Under the pieces are notes generated by a model. That model did not search any database. It was not told the origin of the DNA and saw nothing but the letters and a program-made list of their open reading frames with translations. A stretch of DNA of 36,390 bases from Pseudalkalibacillus berkeleyi (lineage in GTDB: Bacteria > Bacillota > Bacilli > Bacillales > Fictibacillaceae), in assembly GCF_021608225.1 (NCBI RefSeq), contig NZ_JAKIJS010000007.1:1-36390 (forward strand). The letters are read 5' to 3'. Below are positions 20,473-28,984 of the stretch, one piece after another; within the stretch, counting starts at the first letter, position 1; each line of letters starts with the position of its first letter. The position numbers were made by a program, and so were the translations under genes.

Positions 20473-21312
20473 TTATATACTTTTCTCTAGCAGAACCTCT
20501 TGTAGTCCCCACTTCTCTTTAAGTCGATCCATTTCTCCGGATAAATGCATTTCTTCATGCCAAAGCGCAATCCAATTTTGATAATCAAGATCTCCTCTAT
20601 GGACCATATAAACTTTCTCACTTTTTGCGAACTTTTCATTCACATATCCAGGATACAATCGATGGTCCAGATTGGAATGATAAACCGCTTCAATATGGTC
20701 TGTAATCATCACATCAACTTCTCCAGTAGCAACCATTTCGGGGATTGATAAATTTTGATCCACTACGATGACATTCGCATGCTTGATGTTCTTTCGGACA
20801 AAACGTTCATTCGTACCCCCAGGATTTAGACCAATACGAACGGAAGGTTGATCAATATCTGATACGCATTGATATTTAAGCTTGTCCTCACGGCGTACTA
20901 ACGGTGCTTTGCAGTCTCTGAAATAAGGTTGGGTCAGATGCGCGATTTTCTGCCGTTCAAGATTTCGACTTACCCCACCCATTGCAATATCAAAACGATC
21001 CGACGTGAGATCATCCATTAAACTCGACCATGTCGTTTGGACAAACTGTACTTTTACCCCAAGTTGATCTGCTAATAAATGGGCAACATCTATATCAAAG
21101 CCTTCGAACTGACTGGTATGCGGATTTAAATACGTAAATGGCTTGTAATCACCCGACGTTCCAACACGTATGATGCCTTTATCGAGAATTTCATCCAACC
21201 GTGAAGTGATCAACGATCCTGAGTCTGTCACAAGTGAAGGGGTGTTAAAAAAAGCCTCACTCCCTAATTGTCGAATATTCATGGTTTCACGTTCAGAAAG
21301 ATTTCTTTTCAT
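20473..21312 (-). CDS. pheC: cytosolic cyclohexadienyl dehydratase-like protein (PheC type)
   Basis: A 279-residue protein with the periplasmic-binding-protein fold (SBP family 3). The sequence follows PheC-type cyclohexadienyl dehydratases closely: DEILDKGIIRVGTSGDYKPF, YLNPHTSQFEGFDIDVAHLL, TTWSSLMDDLTSDRFDIAMG, GGVSRNLERQ and NPGGTNERF (about 163-171), the motif that I believe carries the catalytic Glu. Such enzymes convert prephenate or arogenate to phenylpyruvate or phenylalanine. There is no signal peptide and no lipobox; the first 35 residues are polar, so it should stay in the cytosol. GGAGGGG supports the start. It is the last gene of the aroC-hisC-tyrA operon under a Phe T-box, which argues for the enzyme and against an amino-acid-binding protein. 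Confidence 0.8.
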   Translation of the reverse strand: MKRNLSERETMNIRQLGSEAFFNTPSLVTDSGSLITSRLDEILDKGIIRVGTSGDYKPFTYLNPHTSQFEGFDIDVAHLLADQLGVKVQFVQTTWSSLMDDLTSDRFDIAMGGVSRNLERQKIAHLTQPYFRDCKAPLVRREDKLKYQCVSDIDQPSVRIGLNPGGTNERFVRKNIKHANVIVVDQNLSIPEMVATGEVDVMITDHIEAVYHSNLDHRLYPGYVNEKFAKSEKVYMVHRGDLDYQNWIALWHEEMHLSGEMDRLKEKWGLQEVLLEKSI

Positions 21313-21343
21313 ATTCTTCCCCTCCTAATGACGATGTTTATGG

Positions 21344-22438
21344 TTAAGCTTTGTACGTTTCGTATTGATGTTGCTCAATGATTTTCTTGGCTTTCTCACG
21401 GTCTTCGTCAGTTCGAAAACTAATTCTTAGAACTCCGTAGACATCCTCGCGTGCTTCAATGATCCGTATATTCGTAATGCTTATGTTTCCTTCAGCAAGT
21501 ATCGTTGTGATGTGTGAGATTACCCCAGCTTGGTCTAACACGTCAACATATAAATCGTAGAATGAACGAATCGCACCTTTTGATCCTTCTGGCATCGCAT
21601 CACGGTATTGTTTCGCTCCTGAAAAATAATCGTAGATACGATCTCGATCCCCTTTTGCGACAAGGTCTCTCACTTCATTCATCTCAATCATCCACTCATC
21701 CATCAGATAGAGAATATTTTCTTGATTATGTTGAATGATATCCCGCCACATTGACGGACTACTTGAAGCAATGCGTGTAATATCTTTAAATCCACCTGCA
21801 GCTAAGCGGTGAATCAAGTCATTTTTCTCTGCTTGGTCTTGGACTTGTCGAACAAGACTTGCCGCCATTACATGCGGAAAATGACTAATTACACCCGTAA
21901 CGAGATCATGCTCATCCGCTTCCATCATCTGAAAATTTGCTTTCGTTCCCTTTAACCAGCCTTTCAGTTCAACTACTTTTTCATTTGGCGTCTTTGGTAG
22001 TAAAGTGAATATATAAAAGGCATTTTCAAATAAATGACCCTTAGCACTACCGACACCTGATTTATGTGAGCCTGCCATCGGATGACCGCCGATAAAAGTA
22101 ACCCCTTTTTGCTGTAAAGGTTCTGCTTTTTTTAAGATATTGCCTTTCGTACTTCCAACGTCTGTTATGATGACATTCGGCTTCAATGTAAAGCTATTTA
22201 AGGCTTCTATTAATCGCAGTGTCTCCTCTACAGGTGTAGCAAATACGATTAAATCTGCCTGTTCCGCTTCTTCACGTAAATGGATAGAATAATCATCAAT
22301 CACTTGTAGTGTTTTTGCTAACTTGCACTCTTCCTCATTCAAGTCATATCCGATGATTGTGGCATCATGTTCTTTTTTGATCGCTAATGCAAGGGATCCG
22401 CCGATTAAACCAACCCCTATGAGTAACACACGTCTGTT
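21344..22438 (-). CDS. tyrA: prephenate dehydrogenase
   Basis: NAD-dependent enzyme of tyrosine synthesis, prephenate to 4-hydroxyphenylpyruvate. N-terminal Rossmann motif LLIGVGLIGGSLALAI, catalytic-domain motifs GGHPMAGSHKSG and ITDVGSTKG, and a C-terminal ACT domain (last 75 residues: GVISHITTILAEGNISITNIRI), as in Bacillus TyrA, where it gives tyrosine feedback. The longest frame starts at 22486 inside hisC. The GTG at 22438 follows AAGGAG at a good distance and gives 364 residues, so I use it. The SD sequence overlaps the hisC stop. Confidence 0.94.
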   Translation of the reverse strand, partial: NRRVLLIGVGLIGGSLALAIKKEHDATIIGYDLNEEECKLAKTLQVIDDYSIHLREEAEQADLIVFATPVEETLRLIEALNSFTLKPNVIITDVGSTKGNILKKAEPLQQKGVTFIGGHPMAGSHKSGVGSAKGHLFENAFYIFTLLPKTPNEKVVELKGWLKGTKANFQMMEADEHDLVTGVISHFPHVMAASLVRQVQDQAEKNDLIHRLAAGGFKDITRIASSSPSMWRDIIQHNQENILYLMDEWMIEMNEVRDLVAKGDRDRIYDYFSGAKQYRDAMPEGSKGAIRSFYDLYVDVLDQAGVISHITTILAEGNISITNIRIIEAREDVYGVLRISFRTDEDREKAKKIIEQHQYETYKA

Positions 22439-22454
22439 CACAGCCTCGTTCTCC

Positions 22455-23546
22455 TTATGAAGACAATTTAATGGTTCGATGATCAACCAAAATTTCTTTT
22501 AATAAAGCAATAACTTGTTCATTTTCTTCATATTTTCCAACTGTTATTCGAATGCCATCTTTAATTGGTCTGACAATATATCCTCTCTGTATGAGATATT
22601 GGAACACTTCATCAAGATCTTGCTCTGGTTCAATATAAATAAAATTTCCTTGAGAAGGATAATATGGGATTTGGTATGCATTACAAAACGTATAAAATTG
22701 CTTTAAACCCTCTTGGTTACGGTTCTTGCTTTCTTCAATAAATGCTTGATCATCCAGTGCTGCACGAGCAGCAACTTGGGCGAACTGTGAAGTATTGAAT
22801 GGAAGTCTACTAATGTTGAACTGACTGATCAGTGTTGTATCGCCAATCGCATAACCGATGCGAAAACCTGCAAGCCCATACCCTTTTGAAAAAGTCCGTA
22901 ACACGAGTAAGTTATTATATTCGTTGACTAGTTTCATTGCGTCTGGATAATCTTCAGCTGTTACGTATTCGAAATACGCTTCATCTAAGACGACAAGCGT
23001 TTCATCTGGAACAGATTCTAATAATCCTCTTATCTCCGTTTCTGTCACATACGTTCCTGTCGGATTATTCGGATTACAGATCCAAACGATGCTCGTCTTT
23101 TCGTCAACTTCATTTTGCATACTGAGAAGATCATGTCGACCGTCTTTTAAAGGCACCGCTCTAATTTCACTCTTTTCAATGACTGCATGATGACGGAACT
23201 GTGGAAATGTAAAAGACGCCATAACAACATTCGATTCCGGTGTCAGTAGTGATCGACTAATAATCTGGATCATTTCATCTAAACCACTACTAAATAGCAA
23301 TTGTTGTTCTTCAATGTTCAGTTGTTTTGCAAGCTTCTCTCTCAAGTCTTCTGCTCTACTATCTGGATAATGTGCAAAATGTGAGATTGAACGTAATGCT
23401 TCTGAAATCTGTTCTGAACAACCGAATGGGTTCTCGTTTGACGCCAAGTTCACAATTTCAGTAAGACCGAGTTCCTTTTTCACATTGTCAATGGACTTTC
23501 CAGGATCATACGCCTGTAGAGATAGCAGCTGCTCTTTCACTTTCAT
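22455..23546 (-). CDS. hisC: histidinol-phosphate / aromatic aminotransferase
   Basis: Class II-fold PLP aminotransferase, 363 residues. The PLP lysine lies in RTFSKGYGLAGFRIGYA (Lys at about 222), and NPNNPTGTYV and VLDEAYFEY are present. In B. subtilis the hisC gene sits next to tyrA in the aro/trp cluster, and its product serves both histidine synthesis and the final transamination to Tyr and Phe. Here it lies between aroC and tyrA, so its main job in this operon is likely the transamination of phenylpyruvate and hydroxyphenylpyruvate. GGAGGAG precedes the ATG. Confidence 0.93.
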   Translation of the reverse strand: MKVKEQLLSLQAYDPGKSIDNVKKELGLTEIVNLASNENPFGCSEQISEALRSISHFAHYPDSRAEDLREKLAKQLNIEEQQLLFSSGLDEMIQIISRSLLTPESNVVMASFTFPQFRHHAVIEKSEIRAVPLKDGRHDLLSMQNEVDEKTSIVWICNPNNPTGTYVTETEIRGLLESVPDETLVVLDEAYFEYVTAEDYPDAMKLVNEYNNLLVLRTFSKGYGLAGFRIGYAIGDTTLISQFNISRLPFNTSQFAQVAARAALDDQAFIEESKNRNQEGLKQFYTFCNAYQIPYYPSQGNFIYIEPEQDLDEVFQYLIQRGYIVRPIKDGIRITVGKYEENEQVIALLKEILVDHRTIKLSS

Positions 23547-23572
23547 TTGATCTCCTCCAATGCTCGTATTTT

Positions 23573-24739
23573 CTAAAAGTCTCTCGCGGATTCACGATGC
23601 CTTCTTACATTTTCTTTAATGACATTCATTTGATCATTTCCAAACTGGTTGACGATCGCACTAGCAAGTTCCCATGCAACAACTGCTTCTGCTACAACAC
23701 TCGCAGCCGGTACAGCACAGCTATCCGATCGTTCTATACTTGCTTTAAAGGGTTCCTTCGAATCTATGTCTACACTTTGTAGTGGTTTGTATAAGGTCGG
23801 GATTGGTTTCATTACGCCGCGAACAACGACAGGCATTCCTGTTGTCATTCCGCCTTCAAAACCACCTGCATTGTTTGTTCGGCGTGTATAACCATCTTGT
23901 TCGTTCCATAATATTTCATCATGGACTTCACTTCCTGGACGATGGGCGGCTTCAAAACCAACGCCAATTTCCGCACCTTTGAATGCATTGATGCTCATAA
24001 TGGCACCGGCTAACTTTGCATCAAGTTTGTTGTCATACTGTGTGTAACTGCCAACTCCTACGGGCATTCCTTCAACAATTACTTCTACGATTCCACCGAT
24101 TGAATCTCCCTGTTCTTTAGCATCATCAATGGCTTTCATCATTTTCTTTTCGGCTTCAGAATCTAAGCAACGTACTGGGGAATCCTCTGCTTTCTGTCGT
24201 AAAGTTTCTAATGACTCACTATGTGTGGTGTTCGCTTTCACACCACCAATCTCAATTACATGTCCTGCAACTTGGATGCCTAGTTCGCTAAGAATTTGTT
24301 TCGCAACTGCGCCTGCTGCTACTCTAACCGTTGTCTCTCTCGCCGAAGAACGTTCAAGTACGTTCCGCATATCCCGGTGTCCGTATTTAATTGCACCATT
24401 CAAATCTGCATGTCCCGGGCGAGGTCTTGTGATTTGACGCTTTACCTCTTCATCATCCGCAATCGGTTCAGCTCCCATTATTTTTCTCCAATGTTGGAAG
24501 TCACGATTTTCAACCGTCAATGTAATCGGTGATCCTAATGTCGATCCATGACGGACACCACTTAATATATTTACCTGATCTTTCTCAATCTGCATTCTTC
24601 GTCCTCTGCCATAGCCTTTTTGTCTACGAGCAAGCTCACCATTAATATGACTAGCTGCTAGTGTTAAACCAGCAGGAACACCTTCAATAATTGTTGTTAG
24701 TTGGGGACCGTGTGACTCCCCTGCCGTCAAGTACCTCAT
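23573..24739 (-). CDS. aroC: chorismate synthase
   Basis: FMN-dependent final step of the shikimate pathway, EPSP to chorismate (called aroF in B. subtilis). The 388-residue length and the signatures [65 protein letters not shown] and [16 protein letters not shown] are all standard. GAGGAGG precedes the ATG. It is the first gene of the T-box operon; aroB, aroH, the trp genes and aroE, which often lie between aroC and hisC or after tyrA in bacilli, are absent here. Confidence 0.96.
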
Positions 24740-24783
24740 CCAAATCCTCCTCGCATGAAATTAAGAAACCATTTCTATAAATA

Positions 24784-24976
24784 GAGCTCTGTTAAAATGA
24801 GTTGTTAATATTCGCTATTGGGTACTCGCTTTCCGCGGACGGTTCGGGAGCCTCACTTCCACAGGATGTGGTGGATCTTAGTCGAAGATCCTTATTAAGT
24901 GTGAAGAGTCTCCCCTGAACCGCTTTTTCCGCAGGAGTCTCCTACCCCATCGCTACATTCAACTTTTAAAGGGCTC
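24784..24976. mobile_element. 193-bp palindromic MITE-like element in the aroC leader
   Basis: The ends are imperfect inverted repeats: GAGCTCTGTTAAAA at 24784 and, read in reverse complement, GAGCCCTTTAAAAGTTGAAT at 24976. Inner arms extend this: CGCTATTGGGTA against CGATGGGGTA, TTCGGGAGCCTC against AGTCTCCCCTGAA, and CACTT against AAGTG. Two tight hairpins sit at the apex: CCAC-AGGAT-GTGG and GGATCTT-AGTCG-AAGATCC. No coding capacity. It resembles a family of dispersed Bacillaceae repeats with CGCTTTCCGCGG and CCGCAGGAGTCTC that I recall. It separates the T-box terminator from aroC. Confidence 0.75.
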
Positions 24977-24995
24977 CTTTAACAAAAACATAAAT

Positions 24996-25226
24996 AAAAA
25001 ACGCCCCTGCTATGATTAGCAGGGACGATATTTAATCGCGGTACCACCCTCGTTACGGAAATGTATCCGTCTCTCATTTCATTAACGGTATCGCACCGTC
25101 TTTCTCAGATTTACCAAGAAAGAAGCTCGAGGGTGAACTTCATGTCATTCTTTGTACTGATTTACACCAACCATCAGCTCTCTTTAACAGTGAGATTGAC
25201 ATTACTTTGTCCTGTCATTGCATATA
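24996..25226 (-). promoter_or_regulatory. T-box riboswitch, Phe specifier (TTC)
   Basis: Minus-strand T-box leader: stem I with the conserved loop GCTGATGGTTGGTG, the T-box sequence AGGGTGGTACCGCG (25037-25050), and a terminator of CGTCCCTGCTA/TAGCAGGGGCG with TTTTTTATTT (about 24996-25027). Aligning the specifier loop with the serS T-box in this window (TGAATCCATCC against TGAAGTTCACCC) places TTC (25135-25137) where the serine leader has TCC. TTC is a phenylalanine codon. Uncharged tRNA-Phe should allow read-through into aroC-hisC-tyrA-pheC. Confidence 0.88.
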
Positions 25227-25232
25227 ATTATT

Positions 25233-25445: not shown

Positions 25446-26519
25446 GTGTCTAATGAATTAGATGTTTTGCGCGGAGAAATAGAAAAAGTGAACATGCAGA
25501 TCTTAGATCTACTTAACCAGCGAGGATCAATCGTGCAACAAATAGGTAAGGTAAAAGAAACGCAGGGCGTGAAACGTTTCGATCCAGTTCGTGAACGACA
25601 ACTGCTTGATTTAATAGCAGAAAATAACGAAGGTCCTTTCGAAACCTCCACGCTTCAACATATTTTCAAAACCATCTTCAAGGCAAGCTTAGAATTGCAA
25701 AAGGATGATAATCGTAAATCGCTTCTAGTATCAAGAAAACGGAAGCCTGAAAATACTGTCATCAATGTGAAAGGTGAATTGATCGGCGATGGAAATACTC
25801 ATTTCGTCATGGGACCATGCGCAGTTGAAAGCTATGAGCAAGTTCGTGAAGTTGCGAAATCTATGAAAGAACAAGGATTAACATTACTTCGTGGTGGGGC
25901 ATTTAAACCAAGGACTTCTCCATATGACTTCCAAGGTCTTGGATTTGAAGGCTTGCAAATTTTACGAAAAGTAGCGGACGAATTCAACCTCGCCGTTGTT
26001 AGTGAAATTCTGAATCCAAATGATCTTGAAAAAGCTCTTGATTACGTTGATGTCATTCAAATTGGTGCCCGTAATATGCAAAACTTTGACTTACTGAAAG
26101 CTGCAGGATCTGTCAATAAGCCTGTACTGTTGAAACGAGGAATGTCTGCGACCATTGAGGAATTCATGTATGCTGCAGAATACATTATCTCAAGTGGAAA
26201 CGACCAAGTTATTCTTTGTGAGCGAGGAATCCGTACGTACGAAAAGGCGACACGCAACACGTTAGACATTTCAGCTGTGCCTATTTTGAAAAAGGAAACG
26301 CATCTTCCTGTTATGGTAGATGTCACTCATTCAACTGGACGAAAAGATCTCCTAGTGCCTACTGCTCAAGCTGCAATTGCAATTGGTACAGATGGGATTA
26401 TGGCTGAAGTACATCCTGATCCAGCAGTCGCACTATCTGATTCAGCACAACAAATGGATATTGAAGAATTCAACGAATTTATGGATAAAGTACGACCAAA
26501 CCAATTCATCCATTCATAA
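25446..26519 (+). CDS. aroA: bifunctional chorismate mutase / DAHP synthase
   Basis: The first enzyme of the shikimate pathway fused to an AroQ-type chorismate mutase, as in B. subtilis AroA. Residues 1-85 are the helical mutase domain ([33 protein letters not shown]). Residues about 105-350 form a KDO8P-synthase-like DAHP synthase with [42 protein letters not shown] and metal-site [12 protein letters not shown]. In B. subtilis the mutase domain mediates feedback by prephenate and chorismate. The start is GTG after AAAGGAGTGG. It is divergent from the T-box operon, so entry (aroA) and exit (aroC-hisC-tyrA-pheC) of the pathway flank one regulatory region. A strong terminator follows. Confidence 0.96.
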
Positions 26520-28301: not shown

Positions 28302-28700
28302 CGACACGTCCTGTGCGACGTAATTCGACGTTTATCATCAGTTTTCCTAGACGAATTAGATACGAGTATTTCAAGGCACGCCGTTTTTTTAAGACCGGAA
28401 CGTGTAAGTAATACTTGAGGATCTTAAAAAAAACAAGTAACACTCACTGCCTAATTACGTCACGTCCTGTGACAACGGCAGTACTTGCACGTCCTTTGCG
28501 TCGGAAAGACGAAGTAGATCATTCGTCTAAACCTAGGGTGATTAGAAACGAGAAGTACAAGGCACGATGGTTTTAAGGACCGGACACAATGAAATCGGCT
28601 AATAGCGTCACGTCCTGAGACAACGCCGATACTAGTACATCCTGTACTTCGGAGGACCGGTAAAACCGAGCAACGCAGTAATTCGACGTTAATAATCAGC
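28302..28700 (-). repeat. cluster of diverged repeats in the serS leader
   Basis: About 400 bases with no ORF that has coding character. On the minus strand, CTGATNATWAACGTCGAATTAC occurs twice (about 28318 and 28678), as do CGTGCCTTG...CTCGT.TCTAAT segments and CCGGTCCTTAAAA/CCGGTCTTAAAA. AGGAC or AGGAT occurs five times as the loop of a small hairpin, best in GTCAC-AGGAC-GTGAC and AGTAC-AGGAT-GTACT. The block is transcribed as part of the serS leader. Confidence 0.7.
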
Positions 28701-28701
28701 C

Positions 28702-28962
28702 TAGAAATAAAAAACTCTCGCCCCATCGCATAAATATTATACGAAGGGACGAGAGTTAACCCGCGTTGCCACCCTGGTTGTACCATTACAAAACATGATA
28801 CCACTCTGGTAATGTAACGGTTACTAACCGAAAATACTTACTGGAGCTAGGCTCGTTCAGTATTTTACTCAAGGATGGATTCACAAGGTTCTTACGTCGA
28901 TTTGCACCAACCATCGACTCTCTAAGGGTAAGAATACTTGTTACTAGTTCCTATCTACATTC
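28702..28962 (-). promoter_or_regulatory. T-box riboswitch, Ser specifier (TCC)
   Basis: Minus-strand leader of serS: stem I loop GTCGATGGTTGGTGC, specifier TCC (28877-28879) in GTGAATCCATCC, T-box sequence AGGGTGGCAACGCGG (28761-28775), and terminator AACTCTCG...CGAGAGTT with TTTTTTATT (28707-28757). TCC is a serine codon, which agrees with the gene. Confidence 0.93.
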
Positions 28963-28984
28963 GTTCTATGTTTGTGTTAGTAGT

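Follow-up and report, generated by a model that had tools for sequence, protein, structure and literature searches.

A predicted cytosolic dehydratase in the place of PheA

The gene considered here, pheC, lies on the minus strand (20473..21312) of the Pseudalkalibacillus berkeleyi contig NZ_JAKIJS010000007.1, whose 36,390 nt were analysed as a whole and are called the window (genome G000). It encodes 279 residues of a predicted cyclohexadienyl dehydratase (CDT) on the solute-binding-protein (SBP) family 3 fold, without a leader. Judged from sequence, this protein very probably acts in the cytosol as the sole prephenate (or arogenate) dehydratase of the cell, carrying out the PheA step, and it would descend from an exported Bacillota enzyme whose gene entered the operon, with pheA lost. 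The observations behind this view are gene content, a T-box, active-site residues, absence of the dehydratase family PF00800, its co-occurrence with leaderless PheC, a tree and a pheA-less site in the related genome G005. From these we infer PheC activity, cytosolic location, the order of events and essentiality.

We propose that the ancestor was an exported CDT of Bacillota that lost its signal peptide. The leaderless gene would have joined the 3′ end of a T-box operon of aromatic genes that was already there; pheA would then have become dispensable and been lost, probably at least twice. Consistent with this view, six of seven CDT fusion enzymes, made without their leaders, complemented an Escherichia coli strain without chorismate mutase and prephenate dehydratase (PMC10520331).

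Absence of pheA and co-occurrence with leaderless PheC

The sequence-only reading of this DNA had PheC taking the PheA role in the cytosol. No PF00800 match was found anywhere in the window genome, which is 99.97% complete in 8 contigs; in 14/14 control genomes this search was positive. Together with the active-site residues, the kinship to CDTs, the co-occurrence and the G005 site described below, this absence supports the proposed role.

Within the 34 genomes of the family, PF00800 was present in 30 and missing in the window genome, G002, G005 and G014. All four are at least 99% complete, and G002 is a single 3.6-Mb contig. Relatives of PheC, counted at an E of 1e-40 or better, occurred in 18 of the 34 genomes: five leaderless, 12 full-length with a hydrophobic N-terminus (hereafter exported) and one truncated (G010). 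PF00800 was absent from 4/5 genomes with leaderless PheC, from 0/12 with the exported form, from 0/1 with the fragment and from 0/16 that are free of PheC (Fisher p 1.1e-4 against all others and 0.0016 against other PheC carriers, kinship ignored).

Wider samples were examined in the same way. An order-wide set of 397 genomes, which does not hold all family members, contained PF00800 in 370 and PheC in 13; only the window genome and G002 among these 13 lacked PF00800, the other 11 having it. A scan of 84,980 species genomes yielded 336 relatives, and the best 80 were examined, among which G000, G002 and G006 are not visible. The PF00800 search was given 43 of these 80 loci, covering 42 genomes, and matched in 38; the other four were two leaderless genomes, Tenuibacillus multivorans (G450) and a Clostridiaceae metagenome-assembled genome (G455). 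Since G450 and G455 carry exported PheC, they were considered as further replacements and rejected: TyrA (PF02153) gave a match below cut-off in G450 and none in G455, so that both look like auxotrophs or incomplete genomes. All five leaderless genomes have a TyrA match above cut-off and an EPSPS match.

A site without pheA was found in one relative. G003 and G007 have pheA flanked by a DUF4145-like gene and an SGNH-like gene, names given by eye. A gap of 230 bp separates the two flanking genes in G005, where pheA is absent and tblastn returned no significant pheA trace (best E 1.6). The window genome, G006 and G014 gave no hit for the DUF4145-like gene; G002 has it, with neither pheA nor the SGNH-like gene nearby. 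The clean site is therefore shown for G005 only. Two remnants were seen elsewhere in the family. G010, which has PF00800, holds just a 161-residue frame of an exported pheC (L024), as if decaying. In G001, the DAHP synthase–chorismate mutase (DAHPS-CM) gene is closely followed by a PF00800 remnant that has decayed and contains four stops (L006, 1501-1743), and an intact pheA is also present.

PheC groups with cyclohexadienyl dehydratases

Pfam assigned the pheC product to SBP_bac_3 and placed no ACT domain in it (the tyrA product has one). None of the NCBIfam models scored above its cut-off, the best being a cystine-binding protein model (93.7 bits against 312). By phmmer against chains of the Protein Data Bank, CDTs came first (5jos 1.2e-72, 6wup 1.6e-70, 5hpq 6.1e-56), followed by CDT fusion enzymes (~1e-48) and the non-enzymatic ancestor AncCDT-1 (9.1e-45). 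Further down stood SAR11_1068 (5kkw, 5.6e-26), and other binding proteins gave 7e-23 or weaker. An AlphaFold2 model of the window protein was built with 41 relatives added (pLDDT 87.8; residues 1-25 and 277-279 under 50). Foldseek with this model again ranked CDTs top by E-value, 5hpq superposing with a TM of 0.94 by target length (0.80 by query) and an rmsd of 1.4.

The CDT active site comprises nine residues: Tyr22, Trp60, Lys100, Asn128, Thr132, Asn133, Asn152, Thr169 and Glu173, and a change of Glu173 to Gln abolishes activity (PMC10520331). In our alignment all nine are kept in all five leaderless proteins. The motif NPGGTNERF is present in the window protein. Glu173 of the Pseudomonas aeruginosa enzyme (PaCDT) corresponds to E208, within MITDHIEA (codon 20689..20691, minus strand). 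Three other matches in the same genome do not keep this Glu. The E of NPGGTNE was also considered as the catalytic residue, which would make exported NPGGTNQ forms inactive. PaCDT numbering rejected this, since the catalytic Glu sits in MITDxxEA, kept in exported forms too; of 71 exported rows, 50 have E at position 134, 19 have Q, and D and K occur in one row each.

Nor does the gene have the marks of a family 3 ABC-transporter binding protein: no signal peptide or lipobox was seen, and no permease or ATPase gene adjoins. Aromatic genes flank pheC on one side, and two genes that resemble deoxynucleoside kinases, so named by eye, on the other. In a tree of 79 rows, whose outgroup was three binding proteins of the same genome on long branches, the window protein grouped with CDT-like sequences rather than with plain amino-acid-binding proteins. 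The outcomes that the sequence-only reading had named as refuting (such a place among binding proteins, loss of the catalytic Glu, a pheA elsewhere) were looked for and not found. Most likely, then, window PheC is a CDT, a known enzyme in a new variant and not a new enzyme.

No recognisable export signal and possible cytosolic traits

Reading of the window PheC sequence revealed no hydrophobic N-terminal segment and no recognisable signal peptide, in line with the earlier remark that signal peptide and lipobox are missing. Among the best 80 of the 336 relatives, only L050 and L112 lack a hydrophobic stretch before the core, with maximum 15-residue Kyte-Doolittle means of 0.33 and 0.97; the next lowest value is 1.37. 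Both belong to the leaderless group: L050 is the G005 genome (record: Rossellomorea aquimaris EaN35-1) and L112 the G014 genome (Fictibacillus nanhaiensis DP2N0-2). A Cys in the core occurs in 3/5 leaderless proteins versus 1/55 exported Bacillota forms (p 0.001, kinship ignored). These traits point to a cytosolic location.

Export by a route without a classical signal, with PheC acting outside the cell, is the least probable of the alternatives, and very remote. Non-classical export does occur in bacilli, and the nearest relatives outside the leaderless clade look exported. Against it stand the rarity of leaderless members among the relatives examined, the skewed distribution of the core Cys, and the DAHPS-CM, which makes prephenate and, on reading its sequence, has no leader.

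An FF pair lies about 20 residues in, in all five otherwise divergent leaderless tails (window 21205-21312). Composition shuffles gave FF in all five tails in 4/100,000 cases, a figure which overstates the case because the five proteins are related. C-terminal tails are 11, 11, 11, 7 and 6 residues long in the leaderless proteins, versus 1-6 in 67/71 exported rows; the other 4/71 exported rows, from longer reading frames, have tails of 69 or more residues. In the exported L037, L038, L039, L041 and L042, about 45 residues (WNGK...NGKxY) separate the hydrophobic stretch from the enzyme part. This block looks stalk-like by eye and is left unnamed, since Pfam gave no significant match to the four blocks scanned. 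The PheC of G006 has no signal peptide by reading, yet contains a stretch aligning with this block.

Proposed entry of pheC into an existing T-box operon

The operon reads T-box–aroC–hisC–tyrA–pheC on the minus strand. It opens with a complete T-box leader RNA (25018..25227; Rfam RF00230, 159.4 bits where the gathering score is 93, covering model 1-219/219, E 2.1e-36) and a terminator hairpin with a T run (25002..25027) found by pattern scan, where the region's three terminator-like hits are not above shuffles (mean 3.6). The specifier codon, TTC for Phe (25135..25137), was placed by comparison with the window's serS T-box, whose register gives TCC, and by an alignment of 13 leaders; it fits the regulated pathway. 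All genes are on the minus strand: aroC for chorismate synthase (23573..24739; TIGR00033, 437.8 bits, cut-off 212.2), hisC for histidinol-phosphate aminotransferase (22455..23546; TIGR01141, 329.2 bits, cut-off 276.55), which we presume doubles as the aromatic aminotransferase, and tyrA for prephenate dehydrogenase with an ACT domain by Pfam (21344..22486; NF005107, 533.8 bits, cut-off 414). pheC starts 31 bp past tyrA, with AGGAGG ahead of its ATG. The run of these genes behind a TTC T-box, as first read from the letters, was thus confirmed. Divergent from the operon, on the plus strand, lies a gene for a DAHP synthase with a CM_2 chorismate mutase domain (25446..26519; NF009239, 648.5 bits, cut-off 279), so that the enzyme supplying prephenate is encoded alongside. 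The operon would be switched on when its TTC specifier pairs with uncharged tRNA-Phe.

Each of the five leaderless genomes has a T-box operon whose aromatic genes end with pheC. The order is T-box–aroC–hisC–tyrA–pheC in the window and G006, T-box–hisC–tyrA–pheC in G005 and G002, and T-box–aroC–aroB–tyrA–EPSPS–pheC in G014. The 8/8 PF00800-bearing relatives examined have the T-box operon without pheC, as T-box–aroC–(aroB)–(hisC)–tyrA–EPSPS, which argues that pheC entered an operon that already existed. In G001, G003 and G007, the EPSPS gene has tyrA on one side and two deoxynucleoside kinase-like genes on the other, the very slot of pheC in the window. In the Pseudalkalibacillus lineage pheC appears to have taken the place of the EPSPS gene, which those genomes now carry at another site. 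Around exported pheC, no aromatic gene of the window's set was found (five full-length family loci and one fragment locus).

The alignment of 13 leaders gave TTC in the window, G005, G002, G006, G001 and G007, and TAC (Tyr) in G014, G003, G026, G028, G008, G010 and G024. These readings depend on that alignment, in which some TAC leaders are one base longer after the codon. A switch of the specifier from Tyr to Phe along with pheC entry was considered and rejected: TTC occurs in the pheA-bearing G001 and G007, whose operons are without pheC, and TAC in G014, which lacks PF00800. A Phe specifier therefore neither arises with pheC nor is needed for the replacement. The sequence-only reading had the T-box supplying the Phe control that PheC, without an ACT domain, cannot exert. 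The two facts behind this hold, as PheC has no ACT domain and stands behind a TTC T-box. The idea of a substitute does not: since pheC entered an existing T-box operon, found without it in pheA-bearing relatives, and pheA-less G014 reads TAC, the control was inherited and not built to offset the missing domain.

Phylogeny and history of the gene

The PheC tree comprised 17 family proteins, 59 others and three binding proteins of the window genome as outgroup. From it, 23 near-duplicates, the order-sample loci L043-L047 and the G010 fragment were dropped, and its root rests on the long branch of the outgroup. The five leaderless proteins formed one clade (99/91, in 98% of bootstraps) within a Bacillota group (99/94) with Thermoactinomycetaceae and exported family forms. 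Terminal branches are 0.22-0.56 in the leaderless proteins versus 0.006-0.07 in exported family rows. G006, which keeps PF00800, branches inside the leaderless clade; being leaderless with part of the exported N-terminal block, it is a possible intermediate. A plasmid search returned 22 records, all under 60% identity. The ratio dN/dS, usable in two of eight pairs, came out at 0.165 between the window and G014 and at 0.061 between two exported forms.

A bolder version of this history is that these genomes replay in nature the experiment on CDT evolution, a feeble exported protein like AncCDT-3 becoming an essential cytosolic enzyme with the help of clade-specific tails, pheA being lost later at least twice and G006 a living intermediate. 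We put it forward tentatively and regard it as unlikely in full. Under it, the new FF-bearing N-terminal tail might dock to another aromatic-pathway enzyme, and the longer C-terminal tail of 3/5 leaderless proteins would be like the tail that tightens PaCDT.

Weighing a binding protein or an accessory enzyme

Several results weigh against a cytosolic CDT as sole dehydratase. The fold is ambiguous: the non-enzymatic AncCDT-1 also reached a TM of 0.94 by target length, and the open-form 5jos merely 0.60, so that fold alone cannot tell a CDT from its binding ancestor. The nine active-site residues are equally kept in 70/71 exported rows and hence do not mark a biosynthetic role. By sequence, the closest protein of solved structure is AncCDT-3 (5jos), an enzyme with a low kcat/KM of about 10^1 to 10^2, whose weakness is blamed on Tyr177, said to misplace Glu173 (PMC7683729). 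In our alignment Tyr177 is kept in 4/5 leaderless proteins and is His in the window protein, with no consistent change across the clade. Given this kinship and Tyr177, catalytic strength is the main doubt. On the genomic side, G006 has leaderless PheC yet keeps PF00800. In DAHPS and TyrA trees G014 falls with Fictibacillus, and the leaderless genomes are not united, so that pheA was probably lost at least twice and pheC either transferred or lost repeatedly. Finally, dS was saturated or incomputable in 6/8 pairs.

Some of these points would equally suit a leaderless binding protein for an amino acid or prephenate, a sensor or buffer and not an enzyme, in an organism auxotrophic for Phe: the SBP family 3 fold, the closeness to barely active AncCDT-3, the retained Tyr177, and the fit of AncCDT-1 to the model, as good as that of PaCDT. 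We nevertheless consider this improbable. All nine active-site residues are kept, while the three other matches in the genome lack the Glu; the rest of the pathway is retained (aroC, hisC, tyrA, DAHPS-CM, EPSPS); and pheC closes the aromatic genes of a T-box operon in 5/5 genomes.

PheC might also be an active but accessory CDT, with some other dehydratase doing the PheA step. To our knowledge no third enzyme family exists for this step, and four genomes at least 99% complete are without a PF00800 match. We therefore judge this still less probable than a binding protein, even though G006 carries both genes and exported PheC stands alongside a cytoplasmic prephenate dehydratase in P. aeruginosa (PMC10520331). 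A cytosolic CDT that replaced PheA remains the explanation we favour.

Comparison with known systems and implications

The PheA-type prephenate dehydratase (PF00800 plus ACT) catalyses the same pathway step, has a fold unrelated to that of PheC, is ACT-regulated, and has no match in the window genome. Exported stand-alone CDTs of Bacillota (Pseudalkalibacillus, Fictibacillus, Cytobacillus, Brevibacillus, Paenibacillus, Thermoactinomycetaceae) share about 50-62% identity and the same active site with window PheC and are its sister lineages. Unlike it, they have a hydrophobic N-terminus, often followed by the ~45-residue block, and PF00800 is kept in 12/12 of their family genomes. P. aeruginosa PheC (PaCDT; 3kbr, 5hpq, 6bqe) has the same fold, 42% identity (5hpq) and the same nine active-site residues. 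It is a trimer; the model of window PheC covers a single chain. PaCDT is exported in the company of the cytoplasmic enzyme (PMC10520331), whereas window PheC is leaderless, in an aromatic operon, and in a genome without PF00800.

AncCDT-3 and AncCDT-5 (5jos, 6wup) are nearest by sequence (48-49% identity); they are reconstructed and weakly active (PMC7683729), whereas window PheC is extant and apparently the sole dehydratase. The CDT-CM and CM-CDT fusions (8cq3, 8cq4, 8cq6) carry a CDT domain with the same nine residues and are exported, fused to chorismate mutase and proposed for signalling (PMC10520331); the window has a separate DAHPS-CM. The T-box tyrosine operon of the Bacillus cereus group (PMC2494555) likewise places a T-box before Tyr biosynthesis genes, the TTC specifier and pheC as last gene being features of the window.

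The role of exported CDTs is described as unclear, with signalling suggested (PMC10520331). How a binding protein turns into a biosynthetic enzyme has so far been studied via reconstructed ancestors. Extant close relatives seem to preserve consecutive stages of this change: exported PheC with pheA, leaderless PheC with pheA and a partial N-terminal block, and leaderless PheC without pheA. Relocalisation, operon capture and gene displacement are thus directly testable. In a literature search that lacked most subscription journals, no title or abstract beginning dealt with a PheC without leader that replaces PheA in bacilli; older CDT biochemistry could describe cytosolic cases. The finding also bears on annotation, as Pfam and NCBIfam describe PheC as a binding protein only. 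Genomes of this kind would be scored as Phe auxotrophs wherever a reconstruction asks for PheA, as a table in PMC9026213 does.

Other features of the window

The ~186 nt at 24790-24975, placed between the T-box terminator and aroC, fold strongly (z -3.9). This stretch is single copy in the window, and its 21-base core pattern occurred in 0/162 loci (exact matches only). We take it to resemble an inserted repeat of a type common in bacilli. The second T-box of the window, ahead of serS, spans 28742-28966 with specifier TCC (Ser), and two Bacillaceae-1 RNAs lie at 28435-28500 and 28584-28648.

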